Translations under genes and position numbers: made by a program
Notes under the pieces: generated by a model
What the model saw: the letters and a program-made list of their open reading frames with translations, nothing else
Told to the model about the DNA's origin: nothing
The model's database searches: none
Source: a virus
Strand: one strand, 5' to 3'
Length of the DNA stretch: 23,351 bases
Virus record (IMG/VR): IMGVR_UViG_3300028422_002001
Location: 1 to 23,351 of that record
Shown here: in pieces, positions 1 through 16,665 of the stretch
Layout of the letters: each line of letters begins with the position of its first letter
Numbering within the stretch: the first letter of the stretch is position 1

Positions 1-681
1 TTATCTCCGGTGTTTGCTGGGCGGCACGATGAAGCCGACGTAGTGCATGGTGTGGATCTCCTGTTGTGGGAGTGTGATCCGGGGTTGGGTCTCGTTGATG
101 GAGGCGAGTGCGATGGTGTTGGCGCGCTCGAACAGCAGCTCTCGCACCATGCTGTGGCCGTCTTGGGTGGTGACTAGTACGAATTCGCCGGGCATGGCGC
201 TGTGGCCTGGTTCAAGTACGATGAACCAGCCGTCTCGGATGGTGGGGCTCATGGCGTCGCCGCGTATCCGGAGGGCGTAGGCGTTGGGGTCGCTGCTGGG
301 GACGTCGATCCAGCCGTCGTTCTGCCCCGCTGAGCGCTCTAGGGTGACCCAGGTTCCCCCCTCATCTCCTTGGGCAGTGCCCTCCACCGGTGCCTTGCGG
401 GAGGGGGTGGTGATCGCCGCTGTCAGCTCCAGTGCATGGTCGCTCGGTAGCTCCAACTCCACCGCTAATCCCGTGCCGTTGATCAACCACTCGGGGTTCA
501 CCTGCACCGCCTGTGCGAGCCGACGGACATCGGCGAAGGTCGGTTCGCGCACGTCCCGCTCGTAGTTGGAGACGCGGCTTTGCGACCGCCAGCCACAGGC
601 CGTCGCCACCTCCCCCTGCCCCAACTTCAACCGCTCCCGCGCCCAGCGCAGACGGCTGCCAAAGCTCATCAATCGATTCAT
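1..681 (-). CDS. CI-like phage repressor, HTH plus S24 domain with altered catalytic dyad
   Basis: This 226-residue protein has the two-domain layout of lambda-type repressors. An HTH of the XRE class covers about residues 8-66 (recognition helix near SQSRVSNYERD, then the typical PEWLINGTG end). A linker and a LexA/CI-like S24 domain (about 125-222) follow. It should bind the operators just upstream and hold the lysis and tail genes silent. In LexA-family peptidases the nucleophile sits in a G-x-S-M motif and the general base in a V-K-[RKE]-L motif. Here these read G141-D-A143-M and V-R180-E-L, so Ser is Ala (GCC) and Lys is Arg (CGA). Self-cleavage driven by RecA therefore looks impossible, while dimerisation may persist. 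The start at 681 fits a leaderless mRNA from the promoter candidate at 688-717; Met5 at 669 is an alternative. The gene stops at the window edge. Repressor identity is firm; loss of cleavage is inferred. Confidence 0.9.
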   Translation of the reverse strand: MNRLMSFGSRLRWARERLKLGQGEVATACGWRSQSRVSNYERDVREPTFADVRRLAQAVQVNPEWLINGTGLAVELELPSDHALELTAAITTPSRKAPVEGTAQGDEGGTWVTLERSAGQNDGWIDVPSSDPNAYALRIRGDAMSPTIRDGWFIVLEPGHSAMPGEFVLVTTQDGHSMVRELLFERANTIALASINETQPRITLPQQEIHTMHYVGFIVPPSKHRR

Positions 682-687
682 CCCCTA

Positions 688-717
688 ATTTTCCATCACG
701 TCCCGTGATGAGGTCAC
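688..717 (-). promoter_or_regulatory. Candidate repressor promoter (PRM-like)
   Basis: Read leftward, GTGACC (717-712) and GAAAAT (693-688) are separated by 18 bases and match the sigma-70 -35 and -10 boxes at 4 of 6 positions each. The spacer contains the whole operator at 694-710. Transcription would start about 6-7 bases past the -10 box, at the ATG at 681, giving a leaderless message as for lambda cI from PRM. The match is by eye and the boxes are weak. Confidence 0.45.
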
Positions 718-755
718 ACGACGAATCGTGTTGATTGATATCACGAAACGTTATT
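694..755. promoter_or_regulatory. Three 17-bp operator-like sites between repressor and cro-like gene
   Basis: Three sites share a 7-3-7 layout. Site a at 694-710 is CATCACGtccCGTGATG, a perfect inverted repeat. Site b at 717-733 is CACGACGaatCGTGTTG, which keeps 6 of 7 bases of the right arm and 5 of 7 of the left. Site c at 739-755 is TATCACGaaaCGTTATT, with 6 of 7 left-arm bases. Centres are 23 and 22 bases apart, about two helical turns, the spacing of lambda OR1-OR3. Site a fills the spacer of the leftward promoter candidate and site c fills that of the rightward one, with site b between. The CI-like and Cro-like proteins encoded on either side are the obvious ligands. Confidence 0.75.
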
Positions 756-760
756 AGAAT
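731..760 (+). promoter_or_regulatory. Candidate promoter for cro-like gene and lysis/tail genes (PR-like)
   Basis: TTGATT (731-736) and TAGAAT (755-760) form sigma-70-like -35 and -10 boxes with an 18-base spacer, and operator site c overlaps the spacer and the first -10 base. The expected start near 767 leaves only a short leader, but it still carries the strong ribosome binding site AGGAGGT at 768-774. No other clear promoter was seen before the tail genes, so this one may drive much of the block. Confidence 0.5.
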
Positions 761-778
761 GGGCGCCAGGAGGTGACC

Positions 779-1087
779 ATGCCCAGCCCCACCCGGAAAG
801 CGATCGATCTCGCCGGTGGCCCAACCGCCCTCGCTGTCTGCCTGGGTGAGCGGCAACCCACCGTCTCCAATTGGCTTGCCCGTGACCGCATCCCCGCCGA
901 GCGGGTGGAGGCGGTCTGTCTTGCCATTGACAACGCCGTCACCCCCCACGAGTTGCGCCCCGATGTGTTTGGCGATCCGGCCTATCGCGCCGCTCGTCAT
1001 GGTGTCGGCCGAGGGGAGGAGGCGGCGGCTGGGGCGGAAGGTGCTGTCGCCTTGGGGTGTGTTAGGCGCGTATGTCCCGCCTCTTAG
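779..1087 (+). CDS. Cro/YdaS-like DNA-binding regulator
   Basis: This small protein (102 residues) begins with a YdaS-type HTH: an AIDLAGGPTALAV helix, the turn and recognition segment ERQPTVSNWLAR, then IPAERVEAVCLAIDNAVTPHELRPDVF. YdaS proteins often take the Cro position in lambdoid prophages, divergent from CI. The ATG at 779 is preferred over the in-frame GTG at 773 because AGGAGGT at 768-774 is correctly spaced for 779. The last 35 or so residues are rich in Gly, Ala and Arg and do not resemble the family, so the tail may be dispensable or altered. It probably competes with the CI-like repressor for the three operators and permits expression of the lysis and tail genes. Confidence 0.75.
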   Translation: MPSPTRKAIDLAGGPTALAVCLGERQPTVSNWLARDRIPAERVEAVCLAIDNAVTPHELRPDVFGDPAYRAARHGVGRGEEAAAGAEGAVALGCVRRVCPAS

Positions 1088-1142
1088 TTCGGGGCCTTCA
1101 ATCCCTCAGAGGGCGTTTACTTTGCAGTTGTGAGGTTCAGTC

Positions 1143-1601: not shown

Positions 1602-1621
1602 CACCGATAGGAGCGCCCACC

Positions 1622-2158: not shown

Positions 2159-2661
2159 TTGAGTACGCCGCGTTGCGTGATGAGATGCGCAGTGGTGACC
2201 TGTTCCTGGTGGAGGGCCGTGGGGTGATCTCCACCCTCATCCGGGTCTTGACGGGACAGCAGCTCTCCCACGTTGCACTCCTGGTCTGGATCGACGGCGG
2301 CCTGTGGGTGGCGGAGATGCGCGAGTTTGTCGGCTTTCAACTGCGGCCGGCCTCGCTCTGGCTAGAGGACATCAGCGGAGCGGGGCACACCGTCTACTAC
2401 GGTCGCGCACCGCGCCGTGTGCGGGAGAGTCCGTTGGTGAAAGAGACGGCCCTGGGCTTTCGCTCGCAGGGGTATGGCTACTTAAGCCTGTTGCAAGTGT
2501 GGTGGGCGCAGCTGCGGCGCACCCGGCTCCGGCCGCGCGGAGTGGTCTGCTCTACCTTTGTGCAGCGGTGTTGGGAGGCGGCAGGGATCGCCTTTAGTCA
2601 GACAGCAGATCCGGGAGACTTTCTGCGCCTATGCGACGGAATCGAGGCTATCGAAGCGTGA
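2155..2661 (+). CDS. YiiX-like permuted NlpC/P60 (papain-fold) hydrolase
   Basis: This 168-residue protein resembles the YiiX/YaeF group of circularly permuted NlpC/P60 enzymes. The N-terminal RSGDLFLVEGRGVIST leads to QQLSHVALLV with His39, a second acidic position follows in VAEM (Glu54), and the C-terminal VVCSTFVQRCWEAAG carries the candidate nucleophile Cys132. Such enzymes act as amidases or acyl hydrolases on wall peptides or lipids; the substrate here is unknown. No signal peptide is seen. It is translationally coupled on both sides (ATGA with the lipoprotein, GTGA with the holin), so it belongs to the lysis cassette. It could be a second lytic enzyme or could process the lipoprotein. 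Confidence 0.75.
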   Translation: MIEYAALRDEMRSGDLFLVEGRGVISTLIRVLTGQQLSHVALLVWIDGGLWVAEMREFVGFQLRPASLWLEDISGAGHTVYYGRAPRRVRESPLVKETALGFRSQGYGYLSLLQVWWAQLRRTRLRPRGVVCSTFVQRCWEAAGIAFSQTADPGDFLRLCDGIEAIEA

Positions 2662-3041
2662 GCGAACCGACTCCTCCTTGGTTCGAAATGCCCGTGCGCG
2701 AGGCGATCGCCTATGGGGTGGTGGTGGCCATCTCCAGTTGGGGCGGGATCGTCGCTTACATCAACCGAGTCCGGGCAGGGCGAGAGTTTAGCCTGTCAGA
2801 GCTGATAGGCGAGCTGACCACCTCGGCCTTCTGCGGCGTACTCACCTACTGGTTCTGCCAATGGGCGGGCCTCAACCCCTACCTCACTGCGGCGCTGGTG
2901 GGGATCTCCGGCCACATGGGCTCGCGTGGCCTGGCCCTCACCGAGCGCTATATGTTGGCTGCTGCCCGCAAGTGGCTCGATGTGCGCTTTGGTTTGCGCG
3001 CCGAGGGCGATCAAAAAGAGGGTGGCGATAGCCCTCAGTAA
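2658..3041 (+). CDS. Holin (LydA / holin superfamily III-like)
   Basis: This 127-residue protein has three hydrophobic segments, at about residues 16-35, 53-71 and 74-88, and a charged C-terminal tail. The stretch NPYLTAALVGISGHMGSRG is typical of LydA-type holins of superfamily III. It should form lesions in the inner membrane that let the endolysin through and set lysis timing. The GTG at 2658 overlaps the previous stop as GTGA, matching the coupling of the genes before it; an in-frame ATG at 2631 would give 9 more residues inside the previous gene and is less likely. It closes the lysis cassette, and a stable hairpin follows about 40 bases later. Confidence 0.85.
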   Translation: MSEPTPPWFEMPVREAIAYGVVVAISSWGGIVAYINRVRAGREFSLSELIGELTTSAFCGVLTYWFCQWAGLNPYLTAALVGISGHMGSRGLALTERYMLAAARKWLDVRFGLRAEGDQKEGGDSPQ

Positions 3042-3082
3042 CGCAGTTTTACCCCGTCAATTCCCCTGTTATCTAGGCATCC

Positions 3083-3108
3083 GCACAACGGCCTTCGGGC
3101 CGCTGTGC
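3083..3108 (+). terminator. Hairpin with UUCG loop after the lysis cassette
   Basis: Bases 3083-3093 pair with 3098-3108, with one A-C mismatch, around the extra-stable cUUCGg tetraloop. No run of T follows, so it is not a standard intrinsic terminator. It may slow polymerase, block exonucleases or separate the lysis message from the next gene. Confidence 0.4.
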
Positions 3109-3137: not shown

Positions 3138-3389
3138 ATGGGCAATCCCACGCTGATGGCTGAGTTACCAGGCAAGAGTAAGTTCTATGTTGCCGAGCTG
3201 GTCCCCTTCTTTGCCCGCGCGTTGGCGTGCAGTGAGGCCGCTGCCCGTCAGCGGATCTATCGCGCCATTCGCGCAGGCCGGATCGCGGTGGAGGAGTATC
3301 CCACGGCGAGTCCCAACCCAGAGTCAGTGACCTATCGGATCCCCCGCGACGAGGCGATCAGGGTGTTGAGCGGCACGCCGCGCAAGTGA
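3138..3389 (+). CDS. Small winged-helix/HTH protein, excisionase-like
   Basis: This 83-residue basic protein has the order FYVAELVPFFA, RQRIYRAIRAGRI and TYRIPRDEAIRVL. That is the usual pattern of AlpA/excisionase-type HTH proteins, in which a helix-turn-helix is followed by a small wing and a final helix. The ATG at 3138 is chosen because GAGGAGAA at 3123-3130 precedes it; a longer reading from 3105 adds a Cys-rich stretch without support. Such proteins regulate transcription or control recombination direction, but no integrase belongs to this block. It stands between lysis and tail genes, where most lambdoid phages carry terminase and head genes. It may be a late regulator or a remnant of a reshuffled junction. 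Confidence 0.55.
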   Translation: MGNPTLMAELPGKSKFYVAELVPFFARALACSEAAARQRIYRAIRAGRIAVEEYPTASPNPESVTYRIPRDEAIRVLSGTPRK

Positions 3390-3424
3390 TCGCCTCGCTG
3401 AGTTCCATCATTCCCCCCTTCTGC

Positions 3425-3442
3425 GCACGACCTTCGTTGTGC
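3425..3442 (+). repeat. Small hairpin related to the one at 3083
   Basis: Bases 3425-3431 pair with 3436-3442 (one G-T pair) around CTTC. It shares the GCAC...CCTTCG...GTGC framework with the hairpin at 3083-3108, so two similar hairpins flank the small HTH gene. Confidence 0.4.
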
Positions 3443-3460
3443 CACCGCTGATGGCAACGG

Positions 3461-3487
3461 GATGCGCTACCCCTTGGGGTAGCGCAT
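3461..3487. terminator. 12-bp palindrome, possible terminator or protein site
   Basis: The arms at about 3462-3473 and 3476-3487 (core GCGCTACCCC / GGGGTAGCGC) are perfectly complementary with TT at the centre. The RNA form would be a strong hairpin, but no T run follows. The near-perfect symmetry would also suit a dimeric DNA-binding protein, for example the HTH protein encoded just before it. Confidence 0.4.
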
Positions 3488-3729
3488 TCGCTGCTCGCTA
3501 ACACGTAACGTCGCAGCTGTTGCAGCTGTATCACCTGTCGCAGCGCCGCGCCGTATCGTACACCCCCACGAAGGTGCTGGTGCAGTGCTCTGCCCGCGGT
3601 GCCGGCCGCCGGAGATGGCGCGGCAACGCCATCGGGCGCACTGGGCCATTCGCACCGCTTTTAACGCCCGCTCCCGGGTCGAGCAGACCTTGGGGTGTGG
3701 GATCCACTCCTAGCCCACAGGAGTCGTCG

Positions 3730-4161
3730 ATGTCTGTCGTTCTACCGGATCTGCAACCGTGGCAAGAGCGCCTGCGCACCCTTTTAGCCGAGCAGGCGAT
3801 TCGCGTCGCCGGCGCTGCCGAGATGGCGAGCGCCATGGCAGAAGGGACCCCCGCACCGGCCCTCTATCTGCTGGAGGAGCGGGCGGGGGCAGAGCCGAAT
3901 CGCAGCATGGTCGGCGTGGTGCAAACGGTGGAGCGGGTGGTCTCTATCCACTACGCCATCGACAACCAAAGTGACGCCTCGGTAGCGCAGCTAGGGTCGC
4001 TGCGCGCCACTGTGATGGGCGCGCTACTCGGTTGGACACCGCCCGATTGCAGCCACCAGATCCAATTTGTTGAGGGCCAGCTGACGGCGTTCGACACCGA
4101 TCTCCTTTGGTGGCAAGACCAGTTCAAAACGCAGTTTCGGCTGCATCACATCCACCCCTGA
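3730..4161 (+). CDS. Phage tail terminator-like protein
   Basis: This 143-residue protein resembles the gp37/tail-terminator proteins of siphoviruses and Mu-like siphophages. The pattern includes an N-terminal WQERLRTLLAEQ helix, an AGAAEMASAM segment, the strand ALYLLEER, and near the end ALLGWTPP, IQFVEGQL and LLWWQDQFKT. Terminators cap the growing tail tube and form the surface that joins a head. AGGAG at 3718-3722 supports the ATG at 3730. About 200 bases of unclear sequence, including a short TGGCCA hairpin at 4200-4215, separate it from the tail tube gene. It is the first recognisable structural gene of the block, so a complete tail could be capped even if no head is made. Confidence 0.75.
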   Translation: MSVVLPDLQPWQERLRTLLAEQAIRVAGAAEMASAMAEGTPAPALYLLEERAGAEPNRSMVGVVQTVERVVSIHYAIDNQSDASVAQLGSLRATVMGALLGWTPPDCSHQIQFVEGQLTAFDTDLLWWQDQFKTQFRLHHIHP

Positions 4162-4363: not shown

Positions 4364-5542
4364 ATGTATGACTCCAGTTTGATGGCGCTACTGACTGCGC
4401 AGGAAGTGAGCTATGGCACCGATCCGGGCGCCGACTACCAGGGCATCCTGCTGACCGAAGGCGCCGACATCCAGCCGGTGGGCGCCAAGATCGATCGCAA
4501 GGTGATGACCAGCCACCGCTCTGCGCTCGGTAGCGTCATCGGTGCCAAGGGTTGGAATCTCACCATCCCCTGCGAACTGAAGGGTGGCGGCCTGACCGGC
4601 AGCGCCCTCAACAAACCTGAGTTTGATCACCTGTTGCAGGCCTCCGCCATGGGCGTCACTGCCGGCTGCGTCATCACCCTGAGCGGTGTGAGCGGCAGTT
4701 GGGAGGCCGGTGAGGTGGTGACCAACACCACCACCTCCGGCACTGTGGGCACCCTGCTCAACGTGGTGGTGAGTGGCAGCAACACCACCCTCTTCATCCA
4801 CCCGCTCGACACCAAGCCGTCTGACACCGACAGCCTGGCCGGTGCTACCTCTGCTGCCACCGGCACCGTCTCCGGCGCGCCGGCCGACTCTTGGGTCTAC
4901 TACCCGCTGAGTGACCACGCCGCTTACAAGAGTGCCACCGCCCACTTCCACTGGGACGGCGTGCGCCACATCGCCACCGGTCTGCGGGCCGACTGGGAGG
5001 TGACCGCCGAGGTCAGCGGTTACGCTGCCATCAAGTTCACCGGCCAGGGGGTCTACAACGATCCCACCAACATCGCCCTGCCGAGCCCCGCGCTGAATGG
5101 TGTACTGCCGCCGGTGGTGCAGAACGCTGGCCTACAGATCATCAACGACGGCTCTACGGTCGATATGAGCAAGACCGCGGTGAAGAGCTTGCAGCTCAAG
5201 GGCGGCAACCAGATCAAAGAGCGGAACGACATGAACGCCATCGACGGCCGTCGCTCCATCGAGATCCTCGGCGCCCGCCAGGCGAGCGGCTCCATCGATC
5301 CGGAAGTGATGGCGCTGGCCGACTTCGACATCTGGACCGCCTGGAAAGACGCCACCACCCAGCGGCTCTACGCCACCCTCGGTGCCGACGCCGGCAACCG
5401 GGTCCACCTGCTGGTGACCAACGCCCAGGCGGATGAGGTGAAGTACCAGGACCGTGATGGCACCCTGGCCTACAACCTGCCGTTTACCCCGCGCGCCCTC
5501 ACCAGCGCCGGCAACGACGAGTACTTCCTGGTGTTCTATTGA
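4364..5542 (+). CDS. Major tail tube protein
   Basis: This 392-residue protein matches phage tail tube proteins of the two-domain siphovirus type. The N-terminal TAQEVSYGTDP and GILLTEGADIQPVGAKIDRKVM segments and the later WTLTIPCELKG-like stretch (WNLTIPCELKGGG, near residue 65) are characteristic. Tube subunits form stacked hexameric rings around the tape measure. An insert of about residues 100-165 rich in Thr, Ser and Gly may form a surface-exposed extra domain. GAGGA at 4351-4355 supports the ATG at 4364; a second in-frame ATG at 4382 is possible. No sheath gene accompanies it, which indicates a non-contractile tail. Confidence 0.85.
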   Translation: MYDSSLMALLTAQEVSYGTDPGADYQGILLTEGADIQPVGAKIDRKVMTSHRSALGSVIGAKGWNLTIPCELKGGGLTGSALNKPEFDHLLQASAMGVTAGCVITLSGVSGSWEAGEVVTNTTTSGTVGTLLNVVVSGSNTTLFIHPLDTKPSDTDSLAGATSAATGTVSGAPADSWVYYPLSDHAAYKSATAHFHWDGVRHIATGLRADWEVTAEVSGYAAIKFTGQGVYNDPTNIALPSPALNGVLPPVVQNAGLQIINDGSTVDMSKTAVKSLQLKGGNQIKERNDMNAIDGRRSIEILGARQASGSIDPEVMALADFDIWTAWKDATTQRLYATLGADAGNRVHLLVTNAQADEVKYQDRDGTLAYNLPFTPRALTSAGNDEYFLVFY

Positions 5543-5600: not shown

Positions 5601-5927
5601 ATGGCCCTGCGCCTGATTGATAACGACGCCCCTTACTCTGTTCCCGTCACCGTACTGGTACCGGACCACGGCAAGATGCGCGAGGTGAAGTTCACCATCC
5701 TCGCCAAGGTCATCTCCGACGAGGAGATCAAGAGCCTGGGCGAAAGTGGTGACATCGAGGCGCTGAACAAGTTGGTCACCGGCTGGAGCGGGATGAAGGA
5801 TCTGGACCACAACGAAGTGCCCTGCACGGAAGAGACTCGGGCGCTGGTGTTTGGTATCGCCAACTATCGCGGTGCCATCCTCGACGCCATCTTTAAGTCT
5901 CGCACCGGGCGCGCCCGGGGAAACTAA
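5601..5927 (+). CDS. Tail assembly chaperone, short form (lambda gpG-like position)
   Basis: This 108-residue protein lies between the tail tube and tape measure genes, the place held by lambda G. It reads as a small acidic-basic protein (MALRLIDNDAPYSVPVTVLVPDHG then REVKFTILAKVISDEEIKSL), like chaperones that coat the tape measure before tube assembly. GGAG about 8 bases before the ATG supports the start. The last sense codons are GGA AAC followed by TAA, and the heptamer G GGA AAC lies in the frame needed for -1 slippage, so a fraction of ribosomes should bypass this stop and make a fused protein ending at 6337. The chaperone role is assigned from position, size and this signal. Confidence 0.8.
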   Translation: MALRLIDNDAPYSVPVTVLVPDHGKMREVKFTILAKVISDEEIKSLGESGDIEALNKLVTGWSGMKDLDHNEVPCTEETRALVFGIANYRGAILDAIFKSRTGRARGN

Positions 5928-5953
5928 TCGCCGCCGCCCAACATCAGGCGGCG
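5918..5953 (+). promoter_or_regulatory. Programmed -1 ribosomal frameshift signal
   Basis: The slippery heptamer G GGA AAC occupies 5918-5924 in the correct phase of the chaperone frame (X XXY YYZ), directly before the TAA at 5925. After a 7-base spacer a GC-rich hairpin follows: CGCCGCC at 5932-5938 pairs with GGCGGCG at 5947-5953 around an 8-base loop. The -1 frame is open from before 5900 through to 6337. Lambda uses G GGA AAG at the equivalent place in G-T. Confidence 0.88.
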
Positions 5954-6337
5954 CTAGATTGGCACGCAACGCGGTCGAGAGGGAACTCGACCGCCCCCGT
6001 GCAAGAGCAGTTACAGGGGTTAGTAGAAGGTGAGGCGGCCGAGCAGTGGGCCGCCCTCATTCAACAACGCCAGCAGCAAACACACGAGGACCTTCTGCTC
6101 CTCGAAGAGAACCTGCCAGTGATCGAAGCGTGGGCCGTAGCGGGCGGCGAATGGATCACCGGTGGCATGGGCGGCCTGGTTCGCATGGACTGGACAGCCG
6201 TAGAAAAGGTGCTCGGTTACCACGAGATCGACACCCCTCCACACCTGATGCGCGGCCTGCATATCTTCAGCCGCGCCTACGCGGCAGAACATAACCGGCT
6301 CGATAACCAAGAGGCGGAACGAAAGAAGAGGCGATAG
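5924..6337 (+). CDS. Tail chaperone frameshift extension (lambda T-like; DUF1799-like)
   Basis: This frame continues the chaperone after -1 slippage at 5918-5924. Reading runs CTA ATC GCC and on without a stop, adding 137 residues so that the fused protein is about 245 residues. The only early start inside it is a GTG at 5999 with no ribosome binding site, so independent initiation is unlikely. The C-terminal part (VQEQLQGLVEGEAAEQW, then WITGGMGGLVRMDWTAV and HLMRGLHIFSRAYAAE) resembles the DUF1799-like proteins found just before tape measure genes. In lambda the fused gpGT recruits tube subunits to the tape measure-gpG complex; the same role is inferred. The tape measure gene begins 3 bases after its stop. 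Confidence 0.8.
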   Translation, partial: LIAAAQHQAALDWHATRSRGNSTAPVQEQLQGLVEGEAAEQWAALIQQRQQQTHEDLLLLEENLPVIEAWAVAGGEWITGGMGGLVRMDWTAVEKVLGYHEIDTPPHLMRGLHIFSRAYAAEHNRLDNQEAERKKRR

Positions 6338-6340
6338 GCC

Positions 6341-9300
6341 GTGGCTGAGATCACATTGGAGTTTCGATTAGAAGGGGACGTCTCCGGGCTCGCAGTGGCC
6401 ATGGAGGAGACGACCTCCGACGTCACCGCCCTGGGCGATGAGTCCACGAAGACGGATCAGATCATCAGTGATCTCGTCAGCCACGCGACAGATGGCTTCG
6501 CAACCCTCCAGGATCTGATCGGCAGTACCTCCTCACGTATCCAGTCGATGGTCGTCGCAGCGCAAAATGTGACCCAAAATATCAAGGCCGCCGCTGCCAA
6601 TGCCATCGCCGAAGTTGCGGATACCTACAACTCCTCCATGGCCTTGGTGAACCGCAGCAGCTCAGGCAGTGGCGGTGCATCAAGTGGTACCGCTGTCGAT
6701 GCAGAGGTAGAGGATACCTCCGCGCGTATCTGGGCGTTGATTGAGGAGGCACGTAACGTCACCAAGAGCATCCGGGAGACGACGGCTGCTGCGGTTGCGG
6801 AGGCGGCCGAGATCTCTGCGTCATCGCTCCAGCGCTCGCAGCGTAGCGCGCAGTCAAGCGTTCCCCAGGTCAGTGGTACGGATGCCGTCGGGGATCCAGG
6901 CATCGCTGCCTTGGAGGCCTCGGCTGAGGGGGCAACAGGCAGGGTGCAGGCCCTGGCCGAGGAGAGTAGCCGCCTCGCCCAGAGCTTGCAGCAGGTCAAT
7001 GCCAGCGCCTCAGGTGAGGCGCTGGCAAACTACAGTGCGAAGCTGGATCAGGCGAGCAAGGCGGGTCAGGAGAGCGCGAAGGGTATCGAGGCGACCTCCT
7101 CTAGCTCTGCTGGATCCTCCGGCATCATGGCGAGTTTTGGCAACGTCATCGAACTCGTGAGCGGCAAGTACGGCAAGCTCATCGAGCTGGTCAACGCCTT
7201 CAAGGATTCGCCTGTCGGCGCGTACATCATCGAGGCCGTGACGGCCTACCAGGGCTACGACAAGGCACTCACCGAGGCCACTGGCAGCGCCGCGGGGGCG
7301 AAGGTGGCGTTCGCTAAGTTGGATGAGTTCGCGGCGCGGACTCCCGTGACCCTGCAAGAGGCCACCGAGGCCTTCACCACCCTCAAAAGCGCAGGACTCA
7401 CTCCATCCATCCAGGCCCTCACCAGCTACGGCAACATCGCGGCAGGCACCAACAAGAAGCTGGCCGATGTGGTCAGTGTGGTGGGTGAAGCGAGCCAGGG
7501 GCAATACGACAAGCTCACCGATCTGGGTATCAAGGTTGCTGAGCAGGGTGACTCCCTCAAGTTGACCTACGGCGGCGTCAGCACCAGCGTCAAACAGGAT
7601 GCGAGTGCCATTGAAGGCTACCTCATGAAACTGGGGGAGACCCAGTTCGCCGACGCCATGGGCGAGCAGATGGACACCTTGCCGGTGATGTTTGATCGCG
7701 TCAATCAGCAGCTCTCCGGTGTCGTGGTTGATATCTATCGGCTGTTTGAACCGAGTGCGACCAGTGTCTGGAAAGACTCCCTGGCGCTGATGGGCGATGG
7801 GGTGGATTACGTTGTCGAAAAGATGGGGGCGCTGAGGGATTGGATCCAAGGTGGTATCGGCTTTGATTGGCTCATGGCCGAGGCCGAATTGTGGTGGGAC
7901 TCGTTGACCGCTGGGTTCGGTGGCAGCGGGGCCGCCATCCTGGAGACCATGGGGGGGGTGTGGCAGGGCATCGTGGACGGCGCCACTGCGATGCTGGAGT
8001 GGGTCACGGGCGGCATTTTTACCTCTTTTGGTGGACTGCTGGAGTTTTTGACCGATTTTGGCAGTCAGGCAGTCTCTCTCATCAGCGATGCCTTTGCTAA
8101 TTTCCCCCTCAACATGAAGGTGGCCGTAACCATCATGCTGGCGGAGGGAGAGAAACTCTGGATCAGCCTAAACGAGTCCATCGACCTGTTTGTGGTGGAT
8201 TTTGAGTCGTTCACCGAGTCCCTTGGTTACTATTGGGAGAGTATGACGCTCAACATCCGTCTGCTCTACGCCGAGGTCATGGATTGGGTGATTGAGCAGT
8301 CGGCTAAAGTGTTGGCGGAAGCCGCCTCCTGGATCCCCGATTTTGAAATATTCGACTCCATGCGCGAGGCGATCAAATCGAGTGCGGCGGCCTTGAGCGA
8401 TGTGGGCTCACGGCAGCAGGAGATCAATGATCTCATCGCGCAAGAGCATGCCGCCCACCAGGAAAACCAGCAGGTGTTGGAGGCGAAGCGGCAGTCTATT
8501 CAGACCACCGCTGAAGCCGAGCGCAGTGCCGCAGATGCCGGTGTGCAGGCGGCTCTCGCAGAGCGTCAGGCGGCAATGGATAAGCGAACGGCCTCGGTCG
8601 CCGCCCGGCAAGAGGCCCGCAAGGCGCAGGAGGAGACAGAGAAGACCGCCGGAGCCCAAGCGCTTGTCAAGAAAACGCTCGATGAGTCATCGAAGAGTGC
8701 CGCTGGCTTTACCAAATCACTTAATGAAAACTCGAAAGCCGCCGGCAATCTGACCGCCGAGGGCCAACGGCTGACGGAGCAGTACTACACCCCCTCAGAG
8801 CGCTTCGAGGCCACACTGGCCCGCTATAAGTTGCTGTACAACGAGAACACCATCTCGGTGGAGACCTACGCACGGGCCGTCCGCGATCTCACCAAAACCT
8901 ACCTCGAACAGTCAGAAACGCCCTTTGATGCCGGCATGAAGACGCTAGCGGAGGAGGCGAAACAGCTAGGACTCACCGAGCGCGAGCGGGCGGCATACAA
9001 CGCGGAGTTGGCGTATACCAACAAGATGTTGTCCGAACACAAAGAGTTGAATAACGACGAGATCGCAGCCCTGCGGGCGCAGGCGCTGGCCAACTATGAC
9101 TTAGGTGAGCAGATCAAGCAGCGCGCCAAGGAGGAGGCGGCGGCGAAGACCCAGTGGGAAAATACGGCTAAGAGTATCAGCGACGGTTTGACCGGTGCCT
9201 TCGTGGGATGGGTCACCAAGAGCGAGAATTTGGCTGAGAATCTACGCAACAGTTTGCGCGAGATGTTCAACTCGCTGGTGTTGCAGCCCAAGATTCAGGC

Positions 9301-11911
9301 CATTATGACCTCCATTTCTAACGATTTAACGACGAGCCTCTTAGGGTATACACCCTCTTCGTCTGGGGCCGTGGTAAAGAGTGTGGGCGACTCATCGGGT
9401 GTTGGCTTTAGTCCATCGAGTCTACTGAGTTACGTCCCCTGGCAAGGGCTGGGTACGCTGGTGCTGGGCGATACCATCATGACCAGTGCCGGTGTCACCT
9501 ACGGGACGGGATTTATGACCACCCAAAGCCAAATGCTGGCGGCCCAGGAGATGGGAATGGGCGGTATGAGTGGAGTCGGCTATGGTGGGCTTGGTATTGG
9601 CGGATATCTTGGATACCAGGCCACCGGTTCGATGTCTGGGGCGGTGACCGGTGCCGTGCTTGGGCAGATGGGGATGGGCGCCATTGGCGGCGTGATGTCC
9701 GGCGCGGGGGCCTCAGCCGGCGTCACCGCGGCCCTTCAGGCCATCGGCCCTTATGGGTGGATCGCCTTAGCCGCGCTGGCCATATTTGGGGATGGTTTGT
9801 TGGGTGGGGGATATACCGCGCCCTTTGGATCCCTCTCCACGTCGAGCGATGAGAGCGATCTGTGGCACAACAAGAATGGCGAATTCATCGGTGCGGAGTC
9901 TGTCTTTGGATATATCGGACTGACTTCTGATGCGCACCACGTAGGCGGCGAAAAGAAAACCCCTGCGATGCAGGCGTATTTCGATGGGCTGGCAGAGATT
10001 GATAACGCTCTCGCCCAGTTCCTCACCGTCGATGAGATCGCTGATGTCAAAACGCGCCTAGATGGTTGGGAGTCCTCCTCTACGAAGGCGTTTAAGGATT
10101 TTGAGTCCATGATGCAGGAGCGCTTGTCGGTCATTTTGACCGAGGTCGATCCTGCCTTGGGCAATCTGCTCGCCGCTTTTGATGGATCTTCCGAGGAGAT
10201 TGCCGAGTACGCCGCCGGCCTGTTGGCGGCGCGTAAGGTGGTGCTCGATATCAATGCCTTCCTGGAGGCGCTGGAGAAGCCCAACGATCCAGTCCAGGCG
10301 ATCATCGATCAGCTGGCGGCGATGGATCAGGCGGTGGCCAATGCCGAAGCCGCTGCCATCGCAGCGGCCGAGTCAGGCGATCCCACCCAGATTGCCCAGA
10401 TGGCCGAGCAGCTCAAGCAGGCGGAGATCGCCCGCTATCAACAGTCCATCGCCCTGGTGTATCAGCTACAGGCCGCCATCGAGGAGACGGAGCGGCTGGC
10501 CTTTGAGTTCTCGTTGCGGCTGACGCAGAAGATCGAATCACTCACTGGGGTCGGCTCTCTCACCAGCGCGCCGGGTTCAGGTTCCGCGCAGATTTATGGG
10601 GCGGGGGCTGAGGTCTACCGCCGCTACATGGAGTCCACTGACCCAGCCGAGCGGATGCGCTATCTGGAGTATGGCGAAGGTCTGGTGGATAAGTGGATCC
10701 AGGCGCGCGAGCAGGAGATCAACCGTTGGCTTGAGGCGGAGATGGCGGCCATAGATGCCCAGCGCTCGGCCTTGCAGGCCCAGCGGGAGCAGGTCCAGCA
10801 GCGTTATCAGGCGGAGCAGGAGGCGATCCAGGAGGCGATCAACCTTACCCAGGAGTGGCAGGGTGTGCTGGATGGCGTGCAACGGATGCTCGACTCGCTG
10901 CGCTACTCCGGTGGCAATCCGCTCTCCTCATCTGCGCGTTACTCCATCCTCGGCTCGGACATCAGCGCGCTGGAGAGCCAGCTGGCGGGTGCCTCGGCGG
11001 AGGACCGGGCGGGCATTGCCCAGCAGCTGCTCTCACTCTACGAGCAGCAGGCCCAGATGATGCAGGCCGGCGATCTGTTCCAGCTGCCCAGCGAGGAGTA
11101 TCAGGCGCAATACAACAGCCTGGTCTTACGCCTCGGCGAGTTGCAGGGCATGGCCCAGGCAGAGACCGATCGGGGCGAGCAGCTGCAAGAGGAGTTGAAC
11201 TCGCTGACCGAGCAGCAGAACGCTGAGTTGGCATCTATAGACGCCCAACTGGCGGAGTTGGATGCGCAGGCGGCGCAGCTCCAAGAGCAGGCTAATGCCG
11301 AGTTAGAGGCGATGCGAGCAGAGGCCGCGGGCTACTACGCCTGGATCCAGGCAGAGGGCGAGGGCTACTTCTCCGAGACCCTGGCGACCCAGCAGGCCCA
11401 GCTCGACGCCATCCTGCAAGGGCGGACGGCGGAGGAGTTTGCCGTCTGGGCCCAGGACCAGATGGTGGCATCGCTACAGACCATCGCCAATGTGCTGGTT
11501 GCCATGAGTAAGGGCGATCCCTTCTCAGAGGCGATGGTTGTCGCAGCCTTGGGCGTCGGCTCGTCCAATGACTCCTACGGTAGCGACACGGCACAGAGCA
11601 GTGCCGATAGCGGCGAGCGTTCGTTACCGGAGGGTGTTGCGCGCTCGGCGACCGCCAAGGTGCCGGATCTCACTCCCCCTGTACCGTTGGCCATCCAGCC
11701 CAGTATCGCCGATGGGCGGCCTGTGACGGTGGCCATCGATCAAGGGGCCGTGGTGGTGCAGGTCTCCGCCAGCGGCGGCGATGCGCGGGAGATTGCGGCG
11801 TCTGTGGGACCGGTGGTGGAGCAGGCGCTCAAGCGCTTTGTATCGGGTCCCTTCCGGGATGAGGTGATCAAACTCGCGCCCGCCCTGCGGCGGGCCCAAC
11901 AGGTGGCATGA
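6341..11911 (+). CDS. Tail tape measure protein, 1856 residues
   Basis: This very long protein sets tail length and is held in the tube lumen until release. A helical N-terminal region (1-290) is rich in Ala, Ser and Glu. A conserved tape-measure core (about 290-410) contains YQGYDKALTEATG, ARTPVTLQEATEAFTTLKSAG and VVSVVGEASQGQYDKLTDLGI. A second helical region follows, then a Gly/Ala/Met-rich hydrophobic stretch at about 1059-1157 of the kind thought to enter membranes. Two coiled coils rich in Gln and Glu lie near 1461-1517 and 1606-1662. At roughly 0.15 nm per residue, as in lambda, the tail would be near 280 nm. The GTG start at 6341 follows the chaperone extension by 3 bases. The frame is uninterrupted over 5.5 kb, which speaks against decay. 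No embedded lytic domain was recognised. Confidence 0.93.
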   Translation: MAEITLEFRLEGDVSGLAVAMEETTSDVTALGDESTKTDQIISDLVSHATDGFATLQDLIGSTSSRIQSMVVAAQNVTQNIKAAAANAIAEVADTYNSSMALVNRSSSGSGGASSGTAVDAEVEDTSARIWALIEEARNVTKSIRETTAAAVAEAAEISASSLQRSQRSAQSSVPQVSGTDAVGDPGIAALEASAEGATGRVQALAEESSRLAQSLQQVNASASGEALANYSAKLDQASKAGQESAKGIEATSSSSAGSSGIMASFGNVIELVSGKYGKLIELVNAFKDSPVGAYIIEAVTAYQGYDKALTEATGSAAGAKVAFAKLDEFAARTPVTLQEATEAFTTLKSAGLTPSIQALTSYGNIAAGTNKKLADVVSVVGEASQGQYDKLTDLGIKVAEQGDSLKLTYGGVSTSVKQDASAIEGYLMKLGETQFADAMGEQMDTLPVMFDRVNQQLSGVVVDIYRLFEPSATSVWKDSLALMGDGVDYVVEKMGALRDWIQGGIGFDWLMAEAELWWDSLTAGFGGSGAAILETMGGVWQGIVDGATAMLEWVTGGIFTSFGGLLEFLTDFGSQAVSLISDAFANFPLNMKVAVTIMLAEGEKLWISLNESIDLFVVDFESFTESLGYYWESMTLNIRLLYAEVMDWVIEQSAKVLAEAASWIPDFEIFDSMREAIKSSAAALSDVGSRQQEINDLIAQEHAAHQENQQVLEAKRQSIQTTAEAERSAADAGVQAALAERQAAMDKRTASVAARQEARKAQEETEKTAGAQALVKKTLDESSKSAAGFTKSLNENSKAAGNLTAEGQRLTEQYYTPSERFEATLARYKLLYNENTISVETYARAVRDLTKTYLEQSETPFDAGMKTLAEEAKQLGLTERERAAYNAELAYTNKMLSEHKELNNDEIAALRAQALANYDLGEQIKQRAKEEAAAKTQWENTAKSISDGLTGAFVGWVTKSENLAENLRNSLREMFNSLVLQPKIQAIMTSISNDLTTSLLGYTPSSSGAVVKSVGDSSGVGFSPSSLLSYVPWQGLGTLVLGDTIMTSAGVTYGTGFMTTQSQMLAAQEMGMGGMSGVGYGGLGIGGYLGYQATGSMSGAVTGAVLGQMGMGAIGGVMSGAGASAGVTAALQAIGPYGWIALAALAIFGDGLLGGGYTAPFGSLSTSSDESDLWHNKNGEFIGAESVFGYIGLTSDAHHVGGEKKTPAMQAYFDGLAEIDNALAQFLTVDEIADVKTRLDGWESSSTKAFKDFESMMQERLSVILTEVDPALGNLLAAFDGSSEEIAEYAAGLLAARKVVLDINAFLEALEKPNDPVQAIIDQLAAMDQAVANAEAAAIAAAESGDPTQIAQMAEQLKQAEIARYQQSIALVYQLQAAIEETERLAFEFSLRLTQKIESLTGVGSLTSAPGSGSAQIYGAGAEVYRRYMESTDPAERMRYLEYGEGLVDKWIQAREQEINRWLEAEMAAIDAQRSALQAQREQVQQRYQAEQEAIQEAINLTQEWQGVLDGVQRMLDSLRYSGGNPLSSSARYSILGSDISALESQLAGASAEDRAGIAQQLLSLYEQQAQMMQAGDLFQLPSEEYQAQYNSLVLRLGELQGMAQAETDRGEQLQEELNSLTEQQNAELASIDAQLAELDAQAAQLQEQANAELEAMRAEAAGYYAWIQAEGEGYFSETLATQQAQLDAILQGRTAEEFAVWAQDQMVASLQTIANVLVAMSKGDPFSEAMVVAALGVGSSNDSYGSDTAQSSADSGERSLPEGVARSATAKVPDLTPPVPLAIQPSIADGRPVTVAIDQGAVVVQVSASGGDAREIAASVGPVVEQALKRFVSGPFRDEVIKLAPALRRAQQVA

Positions 11912-12597
11912 TGGCATATATCTTCAGCAATTTTGTGCGCACAGTGTTGTCGTCCGGGGTGACCGCGGGCGCAACTACGATAAGCGTGGTGGCCGCAACG
12001 CCACCGAATGTAACCCCGCCAGACCCGGGGACAGGCACCGCGGTATTGGTGTTGTCTGACTCATTGGAGGTGGCCACAAAGAGAAATGTAATTTCTTATA
12101 CGGGTCGAACCGACAATGGTGATGGCACTTATACCCTGACTGGGGTTTCCGGGGTGTCTCAGTCGTGGACGGCGGGGGCGCATGTGGTGTTGGATGTGAT
12201 GTCGGAGCAGTTGTCGGCATTTGAAACACATCGCACGGATGGGTTTGGAGATCCGCATCCTCAATATCAACTTGAGGGTGCTATGGGGATGGTCAGTCAG
12301 AAGATATATGTAGCTGCGGGTGCGACCTCTGTGCCATTCTCTGAATTGATTTCAGGTTCGGGCTCTCTTTTCTTTTTGCACTCCAATGTGGGGGTTGTTT
12401 ATTTTAGTATGTGGTATGGGGGATCTGTAACCTATACCCAGCACATTGTTTCTGGTAATCAGGTATCCTGGGGGAATGGGGTTGACCCGGTAGTGGCTGA
12501 CCGGCTATGTCTGTGGCAAGCGGGTGGATATGTCAATGTGTCTAATCGCACAGCGTCATTGCATACTTTAACTCTGGTGAGGTTCCGTCCAATATGA
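11908..12597 (+). CDS. Small tail/fibre protein with HPQY motif
   Basis: This 229-residue protein overlaps the tape measure stop (ATGATG, start at 11908 or 11911). The N-terminal half contains short beta-rich repeats (TVLSSGVTAGATTISVVAA, then VISYTGRTDNGDGTYTLTGV). A central ETHRTDGFGDPHPQYQ segment resembles the HPQY motif common in tail fibre and baseplate-attached proteins. The C-terminal 100 residues are a predicted beta-rich domain with many aromatic residues, plausible as a receptor- or sugar-binding head. Base composition drops here compared with the tape measure gene, suggesting an exchanged cassette. In lambda, genes M and L lie at this place; no similarity to them was seen. Confidence 0.6.
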   Translation: MMAYIFSNFVRTVLSSGVTAGATTISVVAATPPNVTPPDPGTGTAVLVLSDSLEVATKRNVISYTGRTDNGDGTYTLTGVSGVSQSWTAGAHVVLDVMSEQLSAFETHRTDGFGDPHPQYQLEGAMGMVSQKIYVAAGATSVPFSELISGSGSLFFLHSNVGVVYFSMWYGGSVTYTQHIVSGNQVSWGNGVDPVVADRLCLWQAGGYVNVSNRTASLHTLTLVRFRPI

Positions 12598-13148
12598 TTC
12601 CAAGTATTGTGCCCACGTTGCATGGAACGTTTTTGGTGACTCACTTAGATGAGCGCGGTGTTCCTCTATATCCAGCGGTCGAGGTGGCTCCAGGAGACAT
12701 GGGGGTGGATGCCATTGCGGCAGAACTCCTTGCTGGTTTTTTGTCTTCAGGACAACCGGAACTAATCTATTCTGAAACTCGTGAGTCGGTGGCGGTCAGT
12801 TGTATAGTGGAGTTGGCTGCATGGTGTGAAAGAGAACATACTTCTCTGAAGTCCATGTCTCCTCCGGCAGAAGTTGAGAGTTGGTCCGTGCAACAAAGAG
12901 AAGCCGAGGCTGCTGCCGCAAATTCGGATGCCAAGGCACCTTATCTCTATGCCTTGTCGGCCAGTCGGGGCATACCATTTGAAGAAATGGTGGTTCGCGT
13001 GTTGTCAAAGTCAACCGCATACTTGACGGCCTCTGCGGCGCTGGTGGGTCGGTATCAGCGAGCTAAAGATGTCATTCACGCTTATCTCGCTGATGAACAG
13101 TTGTCGGATGAACAAGCAATTGCTGCGATGCGCGCACTGGAGCCGTAA
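12594..13148 (+). CDS. Putative tail fibre assembly or tail-associated protein
   Basis: This 184-residue protein is coupled to its neighbours by ATGA upstream and TAATG downstream. Residues about 97-165 read SWSVQQREAEAA..., then PYLYALSASRGIPFEEMVVRVL and ASAALVGRYQRAKDVI. This pattern is familiar from fibre assembly or DUF4376-like phage proteins, where residues pack as helices around an alternating W..Q..EA motif. The N-terminal half is beta-rich and unrecognised. Lower GC than the tape measure gene and placement after the small fibre-like gene suggest that the two travel together. A chaperone for the preceding fibre protein is the most likely role, but this rests on weak resemblance. Confidence 0.5.
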   Translation: MIPSIVPTLHGTFLVTHLDERGVPLYPAVEVAPGDMGVDAIAAELLAGFLSSGQPELIYSETRESVAVSCIVELAAWCEREHTSLKSMSPPAEVESWSVQQREAEAAAANSDAKAPYLYALSASRGIPFEEMVVRVLSKSTAYLTASAALVGRYQRAKDVIHAYLADEQLSDEQAIAAMRALEP

Positions 13149-15934
13149 TGCTTGGATTTCCTTTGGGAGTACGGCCGCTGGGTGTACTTTATGTGCTCGA
13201 TGCTCCCACTGCACTCATCGAGTCTCGGTCGCCATCGGTCATTGCGACCGTAGAGTTAACAGTGGATGGAGTAGTCCATCGCTATGCCTCTACGGATCAA
13301 GTCTATGATGGTGAGGTCTATACGGCGAGGTTATTGCAATGGCCTCAGTTGGAAGAGGTTGCGCGAGATCAATGGGGGCTGCGAGAAGCGGCCAATATCT
13401 CTATTGAACTCTCCAATGCAGATGGTGCATTGAATGTGTTGGATGAGCGCAGCCTTCCCGGGATTTCCCTTTTTATTCAGTTGATTCTGACCCACTACTG
13501 GTCTGATGGATCCGTGAGTGATGAGATTGTTAGTCGTACTCTGGTGTGTACTGGAGTGCGGCGCAGCTCGTCAAAATGGTTGCTCACCTTGACGGACCAG
13601 GGCGCTCGGGTGCTGGACCAGCTCTATCCTGCACACGTCTGGAGCGCTGATGATTGGCCGCAACTCTTATCCGATCATGTCGGGCAGGTAGTACCCTATC
13701 CACTCGGCACTGCTATTAAAACGCCCTGTGCCTTGGTTGAGGACAATGATGGCGCAGGTCCATGGATCTACGCTGCCGGAGCGCTGCCAACGGCGACCGT
13801 GCTGACAGTTTACCGTGATGGATGGGTGGTGGATTCGGCTGAATATACGTTAGGTAGTGCGACGGCAGTCAGTGGTAGTTACAGTGTAAGAACGATTGCC
13901 TTTGCCAAGCAACAACGTGATACGGAAGGCCGCTTGCTCCCTATTGAGGTTGATCTCCAGGGGGGCGATAGCCGCAATGTGGTGCGTGAGATTCAGCGGT
14001 TGTTGCAATTTGCTGGTGTGGCAGTCGATAGCTATTCATTCGACACCGCTGCTGACTATGCCGATGAAATACAGGCATGGATTGATGTTTCTTATGGTCG
14101 TGATGGACGACAACGCACACTCCTGGCCATCATTGAGGAGTTGCTGCTGGTGGCACGGGCTAATCTTTGCCAAACAGGCTCAGGTACCTGGGCTATGACT
14201 CAGGACCGACCGACCGATTTACATGCGGTACTGAACGAAGCGGCCGGTGATCCCATTCAATTTGATGAACTGGGCGCGGGCGAGATCCCGGCGAGCGTGG
14301 AGCTGCGTTACCGGCCCACTCATATCGATCCTAGCCAGCTCAGTCCCGCCATCACCCGGACCATCCCTGGCGGTACTAGCCCTACCCCAGTACGCTACGA
14401 GGCGCCAGCAGTTCGTAGTCATCAGACGGCCGACCGCCTGGTGGACTATCTCGCCAAGCGCCTGGCCTACGGCGCCAGCGGTAGCGCCCTCGCCGTGGGG
14501 CGTTACTACCAGCAAGGTGATCTCTTGGCCATCGCGGGCACCACGGTCTATAGCGGCTCGCGCAACTGGCTGGTCACCTCCGCCAGCCGACAAGATCACC
14601 GCACCGACCTGCAACTGTTGCAGTACGACGCGGCGGTGTACAACTACACCGCCGGCACATTGCCGGCCGATGCCAACGACACCTACACCCCAGACTACTC
14701 CCACACCCCCCCAGCGGCCCCCACCGGACTCACCGTGACGGGTTCAGGCACCCATATTGCGCAGGATGGGCGGGTGACCGCCTGGGTGCAGCTGAAGGCG
14801 ACTCCGCCAGCGGTGAACTGGTCTGCCGTGCGCTTCAAGGCGCAGGGGGTCAGCATCCCGGATGTCTACCAGATGGAGGGTGAGGATGCCGGTGATGGCA
14901 CTTGGGTGGGTACGCTATCAGGGATGCTGCCCGGCGTGCAGTATGACTTCCTCGCCAATGTAGTGAATGCCTTTGGCGTGGTGGGCACCTCCACCGCCGC
15001 GCTGCGACAGAGTACACCGACCGATACCACGGTGCCGGTGGCGCCGAGTTCGGCGACGGCCGCGCAGGGGACTGGCCGGGTAGTGACGGTTGCCTGGGGG
15101 CGAGTGGGCGATGCGGACCTGTCGGGATATATAGTGCAACGACAGGTGAATGGCGGGACGTGGACGGAGGTGGCTCGGGTTGCGGGCACTAGCTATACCG
15201 ATACAGCGGTGAACTACGCGACCAATTACGGTTATCGGATCTATGCCTATGACCGCAGTGGCAACGTCGGCCCCTATAGCCCAGTGGCAAGCGTCACGCC
15301 AGCGGCCAATGTGGGGGATGGGGATGTCAGCGGTAGTAATCCCATTCAAGGGACTAAATTGGCCAATATTAACGCCGATACGATCACGGCAGGCACCTTG
15401 ACTGGACGCACCGTGCGCACGGCGGCCTCAGGCAAACGGTTTGAGGTATCGCAGTCGCGGGGCGAAGCGTTTTTTATCGATGAGAATAATAATGAAATTG
15501 CTACCATAGGATTGCGTCCTGATGGTGAGGATATGGTTATTGGCTATTTTGGCAGTATCACACATCAAGCCATAGCCAGTAAGCATGAGAATAATTCGCC
15601 CTTATCCACTATGATTGTTGTTAATCATTCGGGTAGTGGTTTTGCCAGAGGCATGTCAGCATCATCATCTGGTTGTGGGGTGGCGGGCTATACAAATAGT
15701 GTGTCTAGTGTATTTGGTGCAGGTGTTATTGGCGTAGCTGCAAGTGGTGGCGTGGGTATGCGCTGTGTAGGGCGTTTTGTGATGGCATCAGAAGGGTTTT
15801 CTTATCCCTACCTCGAAAATAGTAGTAGCCATCTCCTCTTCAAACTCTCTGGTACTGTCTGGATCCGTTTCAATCTGAGCGGTTCTATCGAACGCACTAC
15901 CAATGGTGGATCTAGCTGGACGACACTCGCATGA
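13148..15934 (+). CDS. Tail tip hub and fibre protein with FN3 domains
   Basis: This 928-residue protein probably forms the tail tip and reaches the receptor. Residues 1-520 form a hub-like region (for example LSNADGALNVLDERSLPG and YYQQGDLLAIAGTTVYSG), as in large tail tip proteins of Mu-like siphophages. Two fibronectin type III domains follow at about 523-622 and 632-718 (PAAPTGLTVTGSG, then VPVAPSSATAAQ and YTDTAVNYATNYGYRIYAYD). Next is an ANINADTITAGTLTGRTV segment seen at fibre stalk starts, and a C-terminal domain with Gly-rich GVAGYTNSV/GAGVIGVAASGG repeats. The DNA for the last 150 residues is clearly more AT-rich than the FN3 part, as expected for a swapped receptor-binding end. 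It overlaps both neighbours by 1-4 bases. Confidence 0.8.
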   Translation: MLGFPLGVRPLGVLYVLDAPTALIESRSPSVIATVELTVDGVVHRYASTDQVYDGEVYTARLLQWPQLEEVARDQWGLREAANISIELSNADGALNVLDERSLPGISLFIQLILTHYWSDGSVSDEIVSRTLVCTGVRRSSSKWLLTLTDQGARVLDQLYPAHVWSADDWPQLLSDHVGQVVPYPLGTAIKTPCALVEDNDGAGPWIYAAGALPTATVLTVYRDGWVVDSAEYTLGSATAVSGSYSVRTIAFAKQQRDTEGRLLPIEVDLQGGDSRNVVREIQRLLQFAGVAVDSYSFDTAADYADEIQAWIDVSYGRDGRQRTLLAIIEELLLVARANLCQTGSGTWAMTQDRPTDLHAVLNEAAGDPIQFDELGAGEIPASVELRYRPTHIDPSQLSPAITRTIPGGTSPTPVRYEAPAVRSHQTADRLVDYLAKRLAYGASGSALAVGRYYQQGDLLAIAGTTVYSGSRNWLVTSASRQDHRTDLQLLQYDAAVYNYTAGTLPADANDTYTPDYSHTPPAAPTGLTVTGSGTHIAQDGRVTAWVQLKATPPAVNWSAVRFKAQGVSIPDVYQMEGEDAGDGTWVGTLSGMLPGVQYDFLANVVNAFGVVGTSTAALRQSTPTDTTVPVAPSSATAAQGTGRVVTVAWGRVGDADLSGYIVQRQVNGGTWTEVARVAGTSYTDTAVNYATNYGYRIYAYDRSGNVGPYSPVASVTPAANVGDGDVSGSNPIQGTKLANINADTITAGTLTGRTVRTAASGKRFEVSQSRGEAFFIDENNNEIATIGLRPDGEDMVIGYFGSITHQAIASKHENNSPLSTMIVVNHSGSGFARGMSASSSGCGVAGYTNSVSSVFGAGVIGVAASGGVGMRCVGRFVMASEGFSYPYLENSSSHLLFKLSGTVWIRFNLSGSIERTTNGGSSWTTLA

Positions 15935-16665
15935 TTATCGATTACGCCTCTCTGGTTCCCTCTTCCGTTACCGCCACCTCTGCCGCCGCCGGTTACGCCG
16001 CCAGCCAGCTGGCCCTCCCGCAGATCGGTCTGCCGTGGCGCTCCACCTCGACGGCCACCCAGCAGGTGGTGATCGATCTCGGCGCAACGCAGACCATCGC
16101 CTCCGTCTGGGTGCAACACCTCAACGCCCAACAGTTGACGGTGGAGCGGGCCACGGTGGCCAATAGCTACACCACAGTGGGCACCCTCACCACGCGCAAG
16201 CAGGGGGACGGCCGACGCAAGGGGCGTATCGCCCTCAATGCCTCGGCGCGCTACCTGCGCCTCACCATCGCCGCCGGTACCCCCACCGACGGGGCGGCGT
16301 ATTGGGAGCTGGGGGCGGTCTACCTGTTTGCCGGCTCGCAGTCGTTTGACTCGTCGCCCAACGCGGGCCTGGCGGTGCGCTACGAGCACCCCCAGCAGGA
16401 GGTGACCCTTGCCAATGGTCAGGTCCGCACCGCCAGCACCGGCCCCTCCTACGCGGTGCTGGCGCCCGAGGTGGAGCACTGGCCCGATGAAGACCTCAAC
16501 TGGCTGGTGCGCCAGGCGCGCACAGGGACCATCGGCCTCGATCTGGAGCTGACCTCTCGGCCGTGGGCGCTGTGGCCGGTGCGCAACTACCAAAAGACGA
16601 TCTCCACCAGCCTGCGGGATGTGGTGACCGATACGCTGTCGGCGGAGCTGGTGGAGGTGGTTTGA
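15931..16665 (+). CDS. Tail protein with discoidin-like (F5/8 type C) domain
   Basis: This 244-residue protein is coupled by ATGA to the hub/fibre gene and ends the rightward block. Residues about 30-130 have the jelly-roll signature of discoidin/F5-8C domains: QQVVIDLGATQTIASVWVQHL, an alternating beta middle and SARYLRLTIAAG. Such domains bind sugars or surface polymers. The C-terminal half (GLAVRYEHPQQEVTLANGQV, then EHWPDEDLNWLVRQA and RPWALWPVRNYQ) looks like a phage baseplate or distal tail component. High GC returns here, matching the hub portion and not the AT-rich fibre end. It may be an accessory adhesin at the tail tip. Confidence 0.65.
   Translation: MIIDYASLVPSSVTATSAAAGYAASQLALPQIGLPWRSTSTATQQVVIDLGATQTIASVWVQHLNAQQLTVERATVANSYTTVGTLTTRKQGDGRRKGRIALNASARYLRLTIAAGTPTDGAAYWELGAVYLFAGSQSFDSSPNAGLAVRYEHPQQEVTLANGQVRTASTGPSYAVLAPEVEHWPDEDLNWLVRQARTGTIGLDLELTSRPWALWPVRNYQKTISTSLRDVVTDTLSAELVEVV

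Follow-up and report, generated by a model that had tools for sequence, protein, structure and literature searches.

Judged from its gene content, the 23,351-nucleotide stretch of DNA analysed here (the window) carries most of a prophage that is chimeric, lacks head genes and sits in a tRNA-Thr(CGT) gene. We see an even chance that this prophage works as the locus of an F-type, i.e. non-contractile and flexible, tailocin organised like rhizoviticin. A clean junction where the head genes are missing, a complete tail and the precedent of rhizoviticin speak for such a function, whereas the lack of conserved headless relatives, a likely recent integration, a main repressor predicted to be non-cleavable and a rearranged integrase-att geometry speak against it.

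The window corresponds to positions 74418-97768 of a 125,518-base contig (C28) in a 4.63-Mb genome of 130 contigs. The integrated element itself measures 23.86 kb and is bounded by exact 40-bp direct repeats of the 3' half of tRNA-Thr(CGT), one at C28:74223-74262, contained in the intact tRNA gene and about 194 bases short of the start of the window, the other at C28:98083-98122 (window position ~23,666). On the left flank lie host genes (mre and gat, by reading) and then the tRNA-Thr(CGT) gene; on the right, past a short gap, a large sensor-kinase-like gene is followed, again by reading, by murJ, ribF, ileS, lspA and ispH. The right att copy is still perfectly identical to the tRNA 3' half, which suggests that integration is recent. 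An earlier note had proposed the regulator, lysis and tail genes at 1-16665 as a candidate F-type tailocin. As a headless, siphophage-derived tail with a lysis cassette this description holds, but the block is the left two thirds of one larger element, in which a late module (repressor/cro, lysis genes and complete tail) is joined to an early module (integrase, excisionase, truncated CI2, Cro2 and replication genes) whose genes point to another temperate phage as their source.

The late module opens with the divergent repressor and cro genes named in the earlier note, both of them borne out by profile matches. CI1 (1-681, minus strand; PF00717, 6.8e-16; phrog_4, 1.6e-31) is a full-length repressor with HTH and S24 domains, and Cro1, divergent from it (773-1087, plus strand; PF15943, 1.1e-14; phrog_35, 1.2e-13), is a YdaS/Cro-like regulator. 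Between the two genes we recognise from the sequence three palindromic operator-like sites (694-710, 716-731 and 740-754), together with a promoter-like consensus match (731-760), promoters being no more numerous than in shuffled sequences; LexA boxes likewise occur in the number expected by chance. Ser and Lys form the catalytic pair of S24 repressors. Both are retained in CI2 and in the repressor of phage LPPA56, but alignment with these two proteins places Ala and Arg in CI1 at the catalytic Ser (G-N/H-S-M) and Lys (V/I-K-E), so that CI1 is predicted to be unable to cleave itself and SOS induction is not assured. CI2 (20499-20846, minus strand; PF00717, 1.7e-16), in the early module, consists of the S24 domain only; no HTH is encoded upstream of it, and among those genes of the element that lie within the window it is the only one visibly broken. 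The neighbouring Cro2 (21259-21474, plus strand; phrog_6831, 4.9e-14) is a small HTH regulator, near whose gene no operators shared with the cI1-cro1 region were found. CI1 and the CI2 fragment are 73% identical in DNA over 300 bases, and their divergence over 115 codons (dS ~1.5, dN ~0.21) suggests that they parted long ago and were since kept by purifying selection as the repressors of phages related to each other. The element thus holds two related repressor genes (8-307 and 20506-20805), one full-length but catalytically dead, the other truncated but catalytically intact.

Directly downstream of cro1, all on the plus strand, follow the lysis genes. What had been described as a four-gene cassette stands for an M15 peptidase endolysin (1143-1601; phrog_465, 1.3e-46; PF13539, 1.5e-7; 53-55% identity to phage endolysins) and a superfamily III, LydA-type holin (2631-3041, start at 2631 or 2661; PF16083, 2.8e-24; phrog_785, 6.5e-24), so that the element has lysis genes of its own. 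The two genes between them lack a firm lysis-family match: the first (1622-2158) encodes a lipoprotein with a signal peptide, by sequence reading possibly spanin-like, with no significant family, and the second (2155-2661) a C92/NlpC-like amidase or peptidase (PF05708, 0.0026, below its cut-off; phrog_1128, 1.8e-7). A small plus-strand gene (3138-3389) for a protein of 83 residues matches no family at E 10. A low-confidence structural model makes it possibly a winged-helix DNA-binding protein, and it may be a late regulator or a relic of a small terminase; a PrtN-like identity was rejected, the family scan giving no match. It is followed by a non-coding gap (3390-3729) where head genes would be expected. 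Neither related head genes nor phage DNA resemble the gap, and a search for head-gene remnants in it found none. It contains a perfect 12-bp hairpin at 3460-3487 (ATGCGCTACCCC-TT-GGGGTAGCGCAT) that is not accompanied by a T run.

The tail genes, also on the plus strand, occur in the order first proposed, and all frames are open. They comprise the tail terminator (3730-4161; PF23840, 2.5e-23), the tube protein (4364-5542; tblastn matches with annotated tube proteins reach 1e-22), a gpG-like assembly chaperone (5601-5927; phrog_569, 1.4e-10) and the T part of a gpGT fusion (5924-6337, with a separate ORF from 5999; phrog_680, 6.6e-8, and frame translation), a tape measure protein of 1856 residues (6341-11911; phrog_1716, 2.6e-26; 6e-39 to that of Microcystis phage MACPNOA1), a tip- or fibre-associated protein (11908-12597; phrog_30299, a weak match at 0.0028), a conserved phage protein (12594-13148; phrog_2618, 3.5e-15), a J-like tip and receptor-binding protein with an fn3 domain (13148-15934; phrog_31, 4.2e-11; 30% identity over 776 columns to MACPNOA1) and a distal tail protein with an F5/8-type C, galactose-binding-like domain (15931-16665; PF22633, 3.8e-6; MACPNOA1 homologue, 2e-29). 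The frameshift signal claimed earlier is indeed there, in the chaperone pair, as a lambda-like slippery site G GGA AAC at 5918-5924 that stands directly before TAA and is phased such that a -1 shift leads on into T. Thus every expected assembly part of a non-contractile, siphophage-type tail is present and open, and no sheath was recognised. The segment encoding the two small tail proteins and J (11908-15934) has a GC content of ~51-54% in most kilobases, lower than its neighbours, and a third-position GC of 0.46-0.57 as compared to 0.75-0.86 in these neighbours, as if it had been swapped in from elsewhere.

The absence of head genes first noted for the block extends well beyond it. No terminase, portal or capsid gene was recognised in the tail-lysis block, the neighbouring contig or the element, and profile searches of the whole genome with five models, three for the large terminase (PF03354, phrog_2 and phrog_15), one for the portal (PF04860) and one for the HK97-type capsid (PF05065), were all negative. 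The head-gene models did give matches in control genomes, and phrog_2 was checked to be a large terminase family. Head genes elsewhere in the genome are thus not found by these five models, and their location directly left of base 1, which the earlier note had wished to see checked, is ruled out by the host genes and the tRNA-Thr gene that lie there. An intact temperate siphophage would have terminase, portal and capsid genes, which by these searches the element lacks. Both the junction around the missing head and that between tail and integrase fall between genes.

Related tail loci were the other point to be checked. The tip half of the tail (tape measure, J and distal protein) is 27-34% identical to its counterparts in MACPNOA1. 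A DNA pattern built on a conserved motif of J brought up further distant relatives of this half, namely four viral contigs and the prophage of a Rudaea MAG; a protein search of viral contigs gave no close relatives. The tube, by comparison, is 25-33% identical to those of Rhodobacter, Rhizobium and Synechococcus phages and has relatives at six loci in genomes from the class, and the terminator is related, in the same range of identity, to that of B3-like Pseudomonas phages. Both MACPNOA1 and its relatives on the one side and the B3/Mu-like, Synechococcus and Rhizobium phages on the other share the tail order of our element, but their tail genes adjoin genes for terminase, portal or capsid, of which the window has none. 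In MACPNOA1 the head genes lie upstream of the tail, and homologues of them occur in the four viral contigs, of which two end early, as well as in the Rudaea prophage; the annotated phage S-LBS1 and a B3-like phage have kept their head genes too. A family scan detected portal, terminase or capsid genes in four of the six class loci (L064, L065, L068 and L070), L066 has a major-capsid-like ORF recognised by reading only, and L067 was outside the scan. No headless relative was found, and related tail loci keep their head genes wherever examined, although all are distant (~25-35% identity) and thus do not reveal a fresh deletion from a close ancestor. The tube and J genes are absent from all sampled members of the family (19 members for the tube), the genomes searched including none of the same genus.

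The statement that integrase and replication genes are lacking is correct for 1-16665, but they follow in the same element. The integrase (17934-19052, minus strand; phrog_1, 5.7e-38) is a tyrosine integrase of a tRNA-Thr-targeting family, 47% identical to that of phage Dobby and, over its full length, 39-47% identical to those of the Pseudomonas phages Dobby and LPPA56 and of Stenotrophomonas phage Smp131. An excisionase-like DUF4224 protein (19052-19297, minus strand, part of the ORF 19052-19480; phrog_1266, 5.5e-10) comes next, and the right end of the window is taken by a replication initiation protein (21671-22618, plus strand; phrog_2509, 1.3e-28) and a phage replication-region protein (22554-23351, plus strand; phrog_6028, 1.3e-56), homologues of which are annotated as O/P-like in some phages. 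Integrase, excisionase and a tRNA-Thr-type attP core are shared with Dobby, LPPA56 and Smp131, and LPPA56 in addition has a related repressor. The records of these phages contain a tRNA-Thr-like core with 31 of 40 matches (26 of 40 in Smp131) about 0.1-0.4 kb from the integrase gene, and Smp131 has been published as integrating at tRNA-Thr (PMC3931495), so that it was plausibly the element's own integrase that placed it in the tRNA-Thr gene. Different from these complete phages, however, the integrase here is ~18 kb away from the left att copy and, counted from the 3' end of its gene, ~5.7 kb from the right copy. The element is therefore rearranged, whether by entry of the tail module into the stretch that separates the left att site from the integrase or by an inversion of the integrase-replication segment. 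A degenerate third att copy was sought between tail and integrase, where the best match (21 of 40) is no better than background. Then again, random decay could also leave such a geometry.

How does this arrangement compare with known headless tails? Rhizoviticin of Allorhizobium vitis VAR03-1 is an F-type tailocin encoded by a 22.7-kb headless chimera at a tRNA gene and has been shown to kill; a tail and lysis Region A is combined with an early Region B holding a LexA/CI-like repressor, replication genes and an integrase remnant, and five early-region genes are needed for tail-gene expression (PMC10811719). By this published plan the likeness is close, both being chimeric headless prophages at a tRNA gene (22.7 kb versus 23.9 kb here) with a tail-lysis region and an early region that includes a repressor, replication genes and an integrase or its remnant. 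In keeping integrase, excisionase and replication genes our element departs from the usual mature tailocin locus, but rhizoviticin is the same exception (PMC10811719), and since its tail expression depends on five early genes, the early genes kept here are no argument against function. On the other hand, rhizoviticin sits at tRNA-Cys, lacks att repeats and has a truncated integrase, whereas the present element, in a different host, occupies tRNA-Thr, has both att copies and a full-length integrase and, unlike rhizoviticin, shows a second divergent CI/Cro pair immediately next to its lysis genes. Finally, activity has been demonstrated for rhizoviticin, whereas for our element it is a prediction.

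The F-type pyocin of Pseudomonas aeruginosa consists of a siphophage-like tail with lysis genes and no head, and is controlled by PrtN/PrtR. By this description the present locus resembles it in being a headless siphophage-like tail with lysis genes but differs in its control, as the small genes scanned gave no PrtN-family match and a CI/Cro pair is found instead. The earlier note had taken such control as a departure from known F-type tailocins. This view does not hold, since in Listeria monocytogenes a CI-like repressor controls the F-type tail element monocin (PMC6872733), and rhizoviticin has its LexA/CI-like one (PMC10811719); CI control of an F-type tailocin is thus already known. Cleavage of the monocin repressor depends on the metalloprotease MpaR (PMC6872733), whereas no MpaR-like gene was recognised in our element.

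If the locus is functional, CI1 would hold the late operon off through the operators at 694-754. As CI1 lacks the S24 catalytic pair, derepression would probably be brought about by an antirepressor or by Cro1 rather than by direct RecA-driven self-cleavage, and would yield one long transcript for lysis and tail proteins. The -1 frameshift at 5918-5924 would give two chaperones. Tail length follows the tape measure at about 0.15 nm per residue, so that 1856 residues would set a tail of ~280 nm, the tube of which would be closed by the terminator where a phage would have its head. Target specificity would come from the J-like and F5/8-type proteins, and holin and endolysin would burst the producer, releasing tails that may kill related cells. 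The parts for assembly and lysis can be read from the sequence, and from them we infer expression, particle formation, release and killing. Should tails be made, the element would provide, from another host, a second rhizoviticin-like chimera caught between prophage and tailocin, here with a full-length integrase and intact att copies. Such chimeras would then seem to arise repeatedly and could move between strains, and the element would be one more candidate tailocin, with a repressor that is not SOS-cleavable.

It is quite possible, if short of probable, that we are instead looking at a defective and recently rearranged prophage, left when two related phages at tRNA-Thr recombined and lost the head and other parts, with tail and lysis genes that are no longer selected but not yet decayed. 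The earlier note had held the intact frames against drift after a head deletion. The frames are indeed open, but since integration was probably recent, as the perfect right att copy indicates, this is weak evidence for function. A CI2 devoid of its HTH domain, an apparently locked CI1, the want of conserved headless relatives and the distance of the integrase from both att copies, as compared to ~0.1-0.4 kb in its relatives, all fit a defective prophage. Random deletions, however, would be expected to clip genes, and here neither the junction at the missing head nor that joining tail to integrase cuts into a gene; that all expected assembly parts of the tail, down to the frameshift site, are present and open also speaks against this reading.

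An F-type tailocin that is itself mobile, excising from and inserting at tRNA-Thr by its own integrase, and whose non-cleavable repressor uncouples tail production from direct SOS cleavage, appears unlikely to us. Even less probable is a satellite-like element that excises, replicates and spreads by means of the head and packaging functions of another phage, as a mirror image of the capsid-forming satellites. The intact integrase, excisionase and replication initiation genes and the att copies, together with a tail and no head genes, would suit such a life style, but no packaging or head-redirecting gene was recognised in the element, no head genes of a helper phage were found in the genome and the att copies do not adjoin the integrase. 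That the organism has head genes which an incomplete assembly (130 contigs, ~95.6% complete) has missed is hardly credible, given that a single 125-kb contig contains the element together with its flanking host genes, left and right, and both att repeats in full, and that the three terminase models, the portal and the capsid model all remained without match.

The right-hand part of the window also contains a DUF2335 membrane protein gene (16815-17318, minus strand; PF10097, 1.1e-16; phrog_3996, 6.5e-34), a moron by its nature, which is followed by a segment (17319-17933) that was searched for phage-like remnants and has none. Between the excisionase gene and cI2 lies a gene for an Imm5-like protein of 163 residues (19294-19785, minus strand; PF21805, 3.3e-6, above the Pfam cut-off), possibly an immunity protein; an immunity-like gene is unusual at such a position.
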